Assembly: GCA_958430865.1 (NCBI GenBank) | Contig: CAUDNR010000269.1 | Location: 64,116-128,115 of the forward strand | Length of the DNA stretch: 64,000 bases | Source: Entrophospora sp. SA101 | Lineage: Eukaryota > Glomeromycota > Glomeromycetes > Entrophosporales > Entrophosporaceae | Reading direction: 5' to 3' | Shown: positions 6,665 through 18,637 of the stretch, in pieces | Position numbering within the stretch: the stretch's first letter is position 1 | Layout of the letters: each line of letters starts with the position of its first letter | The notes under the pieces: model-generated | Told to the model about the DNA's origin: nothing | Database searches by the model: none | The model's input: only the letters and a program-made list of their open reading frames with translations | Translations under genes and position numbers: made by a program

Positions 6665-6692
6665 TATAATAGTAATAATGATAAAATTTTAC

Positions 6693-6819
6693 CTAATCCA
6701 TTCCCCCATTGACCTTTTAACCATAAAAATATTCCCAACAGCAAATGTATTACCCCCCATGTGAATAATGTTTTTTGTGATGGAGGTAATGAGGAAAATA
6801 TATATGAAATGGAATGCAT
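6693..6819 (-). pseudogene. Orphan exon 1 of the Zrg17/ZnT6-like transporter gene
   Basis: Identical to exon 1 (52013-52139) of the transporter in copy B, including the start codon and GT donor. The repeat ends 28 bases into intron 1, so exons 2-7 are absent here. It could only give a short peptide of about 42 residues plus intron read-through, with one hydrophobic segment. Confidence 0.9.
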
Positions 6820-7079
6820 TATTATTAATCATCAGTTAGTTTGATTATTAGTTAGTATTGATTAATTGGTTAGTATTATTGGTTCAATGACTCGAGAAAA
6901 ACGCGCAGTTGCATCAACTTCAAAAAACCCGTGCAAAGAGTTTTTGCCTTTTTAGTAGCGTTGGTCATCATTTTCTCTAAATTGAACCAATCAATTGATT
7001 GGCAGATAATAAATTCATCTAAATTATGAACTAATGAATGGGATTCATTATTAATTACAAATAATAAATAATTAATGGT
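6820..7079. promoter_or_regulatory. Upstream region of the Zrg17-like gene (copy A)
   Basis: This lies between the transporter start codon (minus strand) and the SR-protein remnant (plus strand). It contains a TTAGTTTGATTATTAGTTAG-type run and an isolated GC-richer patch, CTCGAGAAAAACGCGC, near 6891. No defined site was recognised. Confidence 0.25.
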
Positions 7080-7457
7080 TTGAAAAGAACAACAACAACT
7101 CTTTACGTTAGTAAATATGTCTTACACTTTCATGAACACGATGTGGCTGGGTACGTTGAAAGATATGGACATGATGGTGGTAGGATCCTGGGGAATTCCA
7201 TAACGTTGAATGATATAGTCTTCACGTATATCTCTTTGAGGATCTTATTCCGTTATAGTAGTACTTACAAGGTTTGGTTTCCTGCTGATTGTTTTGTTAA
7301 GTCGAAAAACAAAAACAAAAACATTTATTTATATTATTCACAAATATTTGATTGGTCTTTTGTAGAATTTGAAGATAGAACAAATATGCAGAGGTGTTTA
7401 TAATGAATATCATGGTGCCAATGTTGAAGGCCATAGATTAAGATATTCAATCATCTA
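7080..7457 (+). pseudogene. SR-type RNA-binding protein (RRM) pseudogene, copy A
   Basis: The frame from 7080 reads TTTTLYVSKYV, a decayed RNP2-like strand, then HDVAGYVERYGH. After a non-homologous stretch it gives WSFVEFEDR, an RNP1-like strand. A frameshift near 7395 is followed in another frame by NEYHGANVEGHRLR, the end of an SRSF/Srp1-type RRM. In fungal SR proteins these parts are contiguous and the start is MVRTTTTLYV. Here the start is broken by an in-frame TGA just after ATGGTT. The middle insert could be old introns. There is no RS domain. SR proteins guide splice-site choice, but this copy looks dead. Confidence 0.65.
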
Positions 7458-15264: not shown

Positions 15265-17128
15265 ATTCAAAGGTAATAAATAATACTAAATTTTTTTAAA
15301 TTTTTTTTTTTAAAAATTATAAAAAAATTTTTTCCAATGAATTAGTGGCTTCCCTAACTAGCTAAAAATGGGTTTAGCCAATGATGTAACAGTTACACGT
15401 TTATTATTTTATATATGGGCACAAAACAATTTTTTTCATTTTTCCGGCAATTAAATATTAAAAATTTTTCTTATTATAGAAAATTTAATTATTGCAATAC
15501 TAATTATTTATTTGTCTGAATTCAATGTAACACTATTAAAATTTGCTTTGGTAAAGTACTCGCATTAACTTAAATATTTCTTCTATTTAATTAATAAGTT
15601 CTTCATATATTTTGGCAAGAAGGCCCTCTTTCACAATCTTCATTTTCCTTTAGCGAACATTCCATTCTATGCTTTATTAGTGCCTTTGTTCATTACAGAA
15701 AGATTTTATCAAGATGTTTGTTTATAAAAAGAAATTAATTATAAAAAATGAATTGAAAAGCTTATTATAGTGTGACTTAGTGTTCACTATGGAAATATCC
15801 TCTACAGGGAATGAACTGCCCGCTTTAATTGATTATTATGAAAAATGGCATCTGAAAATTCCGACCAGAATTTTGTGTACTGGGGCATGCTTGCGTTGAA
15901 ATCACTCACAATACCACAATACAATACATATTAATGTGTACAACGGTCTTTCATTGATAAAGATTCATTGTACTATGTTTTCTGGATTAGTAAAGGGTGA
16001 TAATAGACATTTAAAAACTTTTCTATAATTGTTTAAGCATAGTGGAAGTTTGTTGTTGCACGAAATGTTATACAGTACCCATTGCTCCTGAAACTTTAGC
16101 ACATAGTTGTTACCTCTCTAAATTGGAGATCAAGTTCAGATCCGATTCAAATCCAGTTTATCACTTACTTTTTATTGCCAGAATGTTTGCCGTGTATTGT
16201 AAAGTTATGTTGTGTGAAGTATCTTTTTTTCTTTCGACTACTTTATTTCCGTGGGAGAAAATATTTTACTAATTGCATTTAGCAAGTTATCTCAGTTAAC
16301 TTTTTCAATGTGACAAAAAATAAATGTCTTGAGTTTTGAATAAAGTTAGATTAATTTTTTGGCTATTGTTTGGTCACCCACATAATATGAAAATTGGTGT
16401 AACATTTCAAAATTATATTGTTAAAGCATATAAAGTTTTTCTAATAATAAAGTTTATATTAAGTAGAAAGTAGTGGTTCCAAAACATCTAGAAACTTTTA
16501 AAACCATGACCATATTTTGTTGACCTATTCACTTATAATTTCTATGTATAGTTAATTGTTCTGAAAAACTGCATTCCCAATACTTCTTTTGCCCTATTAT
16601 TTTAATTATTAATTATATTTTTTTATCCTTTGCATATTTTAAAATAATACAATAAAAAAGATAAAGATTTGTTATTATGATATTTATGTCTGTAATGTTT
16701 AATGAATCATACATAGTAGTAGGCCTTCAAGAGAAAAGATTATGGCTATTGATAAAGACTCAAGGTGATAGATGAATTATAGGCCCACCAACTAGCTAGA
16801 GGAATTGAATCATTCATTAATGATTACTGATTGATTTCAAGAAAAACCAATACATCCATAGAGAACCTTCCATTCTACATGTATTTTCTGTCTTTGTTCG
16901 TTATACAAAAGAGTAATAAACTGGGATGAAAAGAGAAGTTCATAATTATTATAGAAATAGTTTGATTTACATAGCATTTACTAATAGTTAGTTGTAGAAA
17001 ACAAACTGTAAAATTTTTCACCTTAAATAATTTTAATAATAATAATAATTACTTTTATTTTTTTGTAATTGATAATAATATTAATTTAATTTAAACAAAT
17101 GTAATGACATGTTTATTATTATTTTATT
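15265..17128. other. 1.9-kb stretch without a supported gene (copy A)
   Basis: AT-rich region between the Kelch gene promoter and the 3' end of uS8. The short frame at 16042-16272 has no recognisable domain. A frame near 15800-15890 (NELPALIDYYEKWHLKIPTR) looks protein-like but is closed by stops. These may be scraps of a decayed element. Confidence 0.4.
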
Positions 17129-17984
17129 TTAATAAAAAAATCCTATAAATAAAATCCATAATAATTATAAGATATATTAGTAAAAAATCAAAGAAAAAAG
17201 GAAGAAAAGAAAAAAAAGTATATTTACCAAGAATTTTACCACCAGTGTGTTTTCTTCTTGCCTCATGGTGATCCATAATACCAGCACTAGTAGTCAACAC
17301 TATATATCAAAAAAAAAAATAAATATCATTAACAAAATACATAAAAACGCACCAAAAAAACTTTTCAATCATTTTTATTATTGTTATTTATACTTGCCTA
17401 AAAAACCAAATTGACGAGATGGTAATAAATTATTAACCCATTTTTCAATATCATCTATTTTTGTATTGAAACGTGGTGAAATGACACCACATTTGTTTAA
17501 GCGACCATTTAATTGAATTACAATTTTTCCTGAACGATGATCATCAATCACTTCAAATTCGTCAATATATTCTTTAATATATATATAATTAAAGAGAGAA
17601 ATAGGTAGGTGTGCGCGTGTGTTTTATATACACATATGTATGCAGAATTATAAGCGTAAGTATATATATATGTTAGCGGTGGTATAATGGTAATTAGTAT
17701 ATATATCATCAAACACGCTATATATGATAATTGATTTAATTACCATGTTTTTGCATTACACGCAAGAACTTAATGACCACTTTTGATGATGGACGAACTA
17801 ATACTTGACGTTTGCCACGTTTTTCAGCATTAACAATGTTATTAAGACAATCATTCTATTATTAAAAAATTAATTAATTTTATTTTAAAAACCCATTCAT
17901 CATCATTACTACCATTACCGTCAACATGTCTGTGTAGAAAATGGATATTTATTATATACATACCAAAACTGAGATTCTAACCAT
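17129..17984 (-). CDS. RPS22: 40S ribosomal protein uS8 (S15a/S22), copy A
   Basis: Small-subunit ribosomal protein that binds 18S rRNA in the platform region. Five exons: 17984-17964, 17855-17744, 17571-17398, 17299-17228 and 17142-17129, giving 130 aa, the usual length of eukaryotic uS8. The sequence follows the family throughout: [62 protein letters not shown] and [20 protein letters not shown], ending GFFY. Exon 1 is only 21 nt and the last exon 14 nt. The third intron has a GC donor (G|GCAAGT) instead of GT. Several introns hold TA repeats. A TGGTATAATGG box in intron 2 resembles a tRNA A-box, but no tRNA folds from it. Confidence 0.95.
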
Positions 17985-18515
17985 TTTGATTATTTATTTT
18001 TTTTATTTTTTATTTGATATGATTTCAACAACAGTCTTTTTTATCTAAAGTAAAATAAAGAAATAAAAGCCATAATGAGTGTCGCTATCTATTTTTCAAA
18101 CCAAGAGCGATTCAAAAAGCTTTGTTTTATAAAGAAATTTTGTTTTGAGTTAATTAACTATCAATTCAAATTTTTGAATTGTGAATATAAATTTTTACTT
18201 TTTCCTCTTTAATAATCGAAATAAAAATTTTTTTTCAAACCCAACCAATTATCAGTCGGAAATTTTTTCTGATAAAATTGTGCATAATTTATTGGGGTTG
18301 GTCACAATGGTTGATCATCAAACATAGTTCAGAACATAGCGGGCTTTCCCTGTGATTGGCTTATTTCATTTTGTGTAAAATGACAATCATTACCAAAATA
18401 AATTTTTTTTAAATTTTATTTTACCGTTAACAATACTTTAAAAAAGATAAAAAAGATGAATAATAAATAAAATTAACTTATATATAATAAAATACAAATA
18501 AAAAAATGACATTCA

Positions 18516-18637
18516 TTATTTAGCTTCTAAAATTTTAAATGATAATAAATGATTATTTAGAATTGAATCTATATTAGAGTTTAAAGAAATATTTTCATCA
18601 TCACTTGTTTCAATTATGTTATCTTCTCCTTCATCAT
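18516..18637 (-). CDS. 3' end of an unidentified gene with acidic C-terminus, cut by gap (copy A)
   Basis: Minus-strand frame ending at a TAA at 18516-18518, with C-terminal residues LLSFKILEAK. Before that it is rich in Asp, Glu and Asn (DEGEDNIIETSDDENIS). It runs into the N gap. Copy B (63836-64000) continues the same frame with SFDDLDLEEN to the window edge. The family cannot be told from about 55 residues. The nucleotides and spacing fit a real coding end rather than chance. Confidence 0.5.

Follow-up and report, generated by a model that had tools for sequence, protein, structure and literature searches.

False duplications, in which assembly errors make one genomic region look like several genes, are a described failing of genome assemblies (PMC9516828). 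The mycorrhizal fungus Entrophospora sp. SA101, a glomeromycete, is a strain assembled from 24 amplified nuclei; in two of the three workflows Lingon served to merge single-nucleus assemblies, and in all of them Chromosemble did the scaffolding against a Nanopore assembly (Montoliu-Nerin 2020, PMC6987183). In workflow 2 (normalised single-nucleus assemblies, Lingon plus Chromosemble), which concerns the same strain as our sequence by protein match, duplicated genes rise as nuclei are added, and the authors describe merged assemblies of this kind as prone to duplication (PMC6987183). The assembly analysed here may be one of those published in that study. In Table 1 of that paper, only the row for 2n (largest contig 338 kb) leaves room for a contig as long as C1462, which reaches at least 245,588 bp here; the total of 101.35 Mb in 2123 contigs fits no row, that of 2n being 130.41 Mb in 4632 contigs, and this misfit counts against false duplication (PMC6987183). 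A pooled workflow was used in another study, the main text of which does not name SA101 (PMC10512289). Amplification is itself a source of false joins: for MDA in E. coli, 85% of chimeras are inverted joins, and more than 70% of junctions show complementary overlaps of 2-21 nt (PMC1855051).

The window, meaning the whole 64,000-nucleotide stretch analysed here, is the right half of the 128,115-bp scaffold C257 (C257:64116-128115), and the two end at the same base. An earlier note had reported a 12-kb direct repeat, apparently 100% identical, within it, and a base-by-base comparison of the window bore this out: 6665-18637 and 51985-63957 agree at 11,973 of 11,973 bases at an offset of 45,320, an identity far beyond chance, and no further identical run of more than 30 bases occurs at this offset within the window. 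(In a repeat scan, all that came up of the pair was a 300-nt family at that spacing.) The note left the choice between a very recent segmental duplication and a false one made by assembly, and we favour the second, because every block of the scaffold ends at the segment and because, for three of its four left joins, other contigs show a conflicting continuation. Judged from the assembled sequence, the repeat is very probably a false duplication, likewise a case of one region made to look like several genes, with the difference from the cases in PMC9516828 that it probably arose from the merging of single-nucleus assemblies. The features of the window are collected in Table 1.

Table 1. Features of the window, with window positions in the second column and scaffold positions where given.
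Feature	Position	Strand	Basis or remark
Copy 3 (copy A of the earlier note), probably a false copy	6665..18637 (C257:70780-82752)	+	identical to 51985-63957
Copy 4, fuller copy, probable native locus	46504..63957 (C257:110619-128072)	+	alignment with copy 1; left flank not duplicated in full
Left flank of copy 3	1174..6686	+	also C1455:51096-57139, 99.5-99.8%
22-bp overlap at the copy-3 left join	6665..6686	+	common to segment and C1455
MITE-like element, terminal inverted repeats of ~56 bp	46586..47331	+	further copies on C3 and C274
10-N assembly gap, at which the copy-3 block stops	18638..18647	.	window sequence
Start of dispersed repeat, right end of copy 4; contains the "acidic protein" ORF	63653..64000 (18333-18637 in copy 3)	+	recurrence elsewhere
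Kelch/coiled-coil gene, copy 3	10151..15183	-	Kelch matches on exons; second copy 55471-60503
uS8 exons, copy 3	17124..17623	-	Pfam match on one exon; second copy 62444-62943
Further redundant stretch	26073..40994	+	again on C962 in pieces, 31831-40994 inverted

Searches covered the whole genome (101,348,593 bases, 2123 contigs), and copies were compared using all of C257 against itself together with parts of C1033, C1455 and C1777. The segment is present four times on C257, at 6285-23564, 29457-43977, 70780-82752 and 110619-128072 (copies 1 to 4), and a fifth time, reversed and at 99.7%, at C1033:70937-87765; the second member of the pair in the window (copy B of the earlier note) is the part of copy 4 that it has in common with copy 3. 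This tally, four exact or near-exact copies on one scaffold and one on another, we counted in favour of false duplication. Copies 3 and 4 show zero differences, copy 2 differs from copy 4 only between C257:110729 and 111175, and the 9,154 bp common to all four copies on C257 are identical in every comparison with copy 3. The copy on C1033 departs from copy 4 at C257:111330, at 123596 and from 127301 onward, with a single mismatch across C257:111331-127300. Differences between copies sit almost only at the segment edges, near which copy 2 and the C1033 copy deviate. Copy 1 aligns with copy 4 over 17,280 bp with one mismatch and one indel; because of these, and because the two have 82 bp in common beyond a MITE-like element, they are not one string, a point that counts against false duplication.

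The segment holds five simple-sequence tracts that satisfy the criterion used, one more than the earlier note had counted, and all five are identical in all five copies, as the note had found for its four tracts in the pair. Identity that takes in such fast-mutating tracts is what a false duplication should show, the exceptions being copies 1 and 4 relative to each other and the edges of copy 2 and of the C1033 copy. The same identity speaks against a genuine segmental amplification of very recent date, in which copies of the uS8/Kelch region would have moved to new flanks, and the near absence of base differences in the shared core speaks against a structural difference among nuclei, in which the region would lie beside different flanks and the merging of 24 nuclei would show all forms side by side. 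The segment is also not a transposon moving as a unit, a reading we rejected since the edges differ from copy to copy.

The right ends of the copies point in the same direction. N gaps at C257:1-3574, 23565-27209, 43996-44995 and 82753-82762 delimit four blocks, and all four end at the segment, at offsets of 11798, 9172, 11973 and 12016 from the copy-3 start, the last of them where the scaffold ends and the other three at N gaps (the second block extends 18 bases beyond its last match). All four right ends on C257 thus lie at gaps or contig ends, as expected of falsely duplicated copies: that all blocks end at the segment fits four contigs of one region set in a row and would not be expected of independent duplications, and it weighs against segmental amplification. 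The earlier note was right that one end of its repeat is an N gap; its statement that copy B alone has continuous flanks holds for the left flank of that copy, but on the right only 43 bases follow the point where copy 3 stops before the scaffold ends, and the left side of copy A is likewise free of gaps. The contigs probably stop near 63653 because a dispersed repeat starts there, which recurs at 99-100% over 305-349 bases on at least five contigs (C2015, C215, C1651, C227 and C1374) and, among the matches listed, at 73-92% on further contigs. The acidic-protein gene of the earlier note exists as an open reading frame, but it lies in this stretch and, given that the stretch recurs on other contigs, is probably part of the dispersed repeat. 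As a separate matter, the 3,574 N with which C257 opens are unusual for a deposited record and may be a withheld stretch or a leftover of scaffolding.

On the left, three of the four joins on C257 are contradicted by other contigs, again as expected of a false duplication, and only that of copy 4 is uncontradicted. C603 and C1739 also carry the left flank of copy 1 (100% as rounded). Both leave C257 at 6295, at the end of an A-rich run (about 11 bases) which the segment has as well, and past the join they are the same as each other over the 50 bases compared. C274 likewise carries the left flank of copy 2 (100% as rounded) and the MITE-like element, without the sequence that follows in copy 2. 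Copy 2 switches source inside the element: it equals C274 over the first 296 bases and copy 4 from about base 444, and in between is unlike both. The C1033 alignment starts inside this element as well. C1455 follows C257 exactly up to 70801 and departs from copy 3 after the 22-bp overlap, just 40 of the 2,901 bp of its continuation matching C257; for the parts of C603, C1739 and C274 that lie past their joins (about 2.2-3.7 kb each), C257 offers no match above 97%. Ordinary redundancy of two haplotypes may explain the differences of 0.2-0.5% to C1455, not four copies in a row. Copy 4 has a continuous left flank, and of its adjoining 5,509 bp (a query starting at the end of the C962 match) only portions recur elsewhere, in repeats that do not exceed 95%; for this reason copy 4 is the strongest candidate for the native locus.

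Several smaller repeats were also seen. A 533-bp tandem duplication (99.4%) at C1455:53641-54706 is single-copy in C257, window positions 1-1296 and 1941-4219 recur on C524 at 100% and on C1671 at 98%, and 44790-45634 belongs to a large repeat family with at least 39 matches at 81-90%.

Segmental amplification would account for copies that adjoin different flanks and for the gap-free left join of copy 3 (6664/6665), the latter also counting against false duplication, and a diverged uS8 paralogue at C1033:63367-63591 (92%) shows that the region can duplicate. However, it is other contigs that carry the alternative continuations of the flanks, and past the overlaps these are without a close match in C257: over 2-4 kb per continuation, and in C257 outside its N gaps, we did not find the halves of a target on either side of an inserted copy, as real duplication should leave them. 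The gaps of C257 could conceal the missing halves, which counts against false duplication; taken together, we hold a real amplification to be highly improbable. Slightly less probable still is a structural difference among nuclei, which would draw on the combination of 24 separately amplified nuclei (PMC6987183) and on the alternative continuations of three flanks, but the positions of the joins, at short overlaps or within a repeat, are those seen in chimeras of amplification or assembly. The related proposition that the left flanks are real, with the chromosomal position of the uS8/Kelch region differing between nuclei by way of the MITE-like element and short overlaps while the segment stays identical, we regard as having an equally slim chance.

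False duplication, the reading that we prefer, could have come about as follows. A single region of the genome, about 17 kb long and with the Kelch/coiled-coil gene and uS8, would be covered by several redundant contigs, probably derived from single amplified nuclei that had each been assembled separately. Some of these contigs would be chimeric on their left side through joins at short overlaps or within a repeat. The merging step would then have left the redundant contigs uncollapsed, and a reference-guided scaffolder would have set four of them in a row on C257 and one on C1033. The assembly paper for SA101 sets out a pipeline of this type and tells of duplication in one of its workflows, which we counted in favour of this reading (PMC6987183). 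A short overlap at the join, as in MDA chimeras, is found for copy 3 (22 bp), for copy 1 (about 11 bases, A-rich) and for C962 (about 17 bp), whereas the join of copy 2 lies inside a repeat. C962 joins points that are 9.1 kb apart on C257, inverted and with the overlap of about 17 bases, and the rearranged member of this pair could be either C962 or C257. The likeness to MDA chimeras extends to the short overlaps of the C962, copy-1 and copy-3 joins; the differences are that C962 has an inverted interval where MDA chimeras have an inversion with a deletion, that the overlap of copy 3 is 22 bp as against up to 21, and that the copy-2 join is inside a repeat (PMC1855051).

Redundancy of this kind may occur elsewhere in the assembly too. 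C1672 contains three identical blocks, pairwise of at least 8,182, 9,678 and 8,182 bp, and these, together with the equal scores of Rpb1 matches, we counted in favour of false duplication. However, the copies on C1672 part at 13371/87182 and 55693/87182, the next gap starting at 93520, so that the block ends in the parts read lie away from gaps, which counts against false duplication and would suit a segmental amplification. A search for the Rpb1 domain gave 20 matches, with equal scores for C454 and C793 and for C888 and C1777, these being match scores only, and with matches on C275 and C2074 standing alone. Three Rpb1 paralogues are expected, and their inclusion among the matches counts against false duplication. 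Matches of equal score within one contig also occur on, for example, C1450, C1378, C1746, C1451, C755, C476, C1403 and C1540; base-by-base comparison among such contigs covered C1672 alone, in part, and the others may hold ordinary repeats.

Of the genes named in the earlier note, the Kelch gene is confirmed by Kelch matches on its exons. Its 654-aa reading frame is 100% identical to two proteins of Entrophospora sp. SA101, behind which stand 2 and 8 member sequences, numbers that may reflect several annotated copies; one relative, which aligns to 57% of the query at 39% identity, bears the name negative regulator of mitotic exit, and we take the gene to be Tea1/Kel1-like. For uS8 the support is divided: the exon at 17124-17306 has a weak match to Pfam Ribosomal_S8 (E 1e-5), just over the cut-off, and that at 17384-17623 has no Pfam match and is presumably a uS8 exon on the basis of the family. 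A genome-wide Pfam search for Ribosomal_S8 listed C1643 and C1669 alone; introns that interrupt the gene are the probable reason why the segment locus is absent from this result. In a search of the genome the 17384-17623 exon (79 residues) was found at four identical places and as one paralogue at 92% protein identity, that at C1033:63367-63591. C257 has the Kelch/coiled-coil region four times and this exon three times, and C1033 has one more of each.

The paralogue belongs to an inverted, diverged second uS8 region, C1033:61858-64644 against C1033:70484-73724, on the two sides of a 5,757-N gap. Its DNA is 85-91% identical to the copies on C257, with 95% in one stretch compared within C1033, and it is probably a true older duplication; it looks like an illustration of how real divergence appears in this genome.

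As to what the repeat means, the segment very probably represents a single real region of genes, put in several places by assembly software, and the additional copies should be left out of gene counts. The earlier note warned of a wrong gene count for this region in the case of a false duplication, and the evidence supports that warning: gene counts, recent gene-family expansions and copy-number claims drawn from this assembly would be inflated. The duplication itself, in all likelihood not a real feature of the genome, would hold little biological interest. Scans of the window for tRNAs and Rfam families found nothing. A reading frame at 34811-36436 carries ZZ, Myb and SWIRM-associated domains, a set that we take to be that of chromatin-remodelling subunits.
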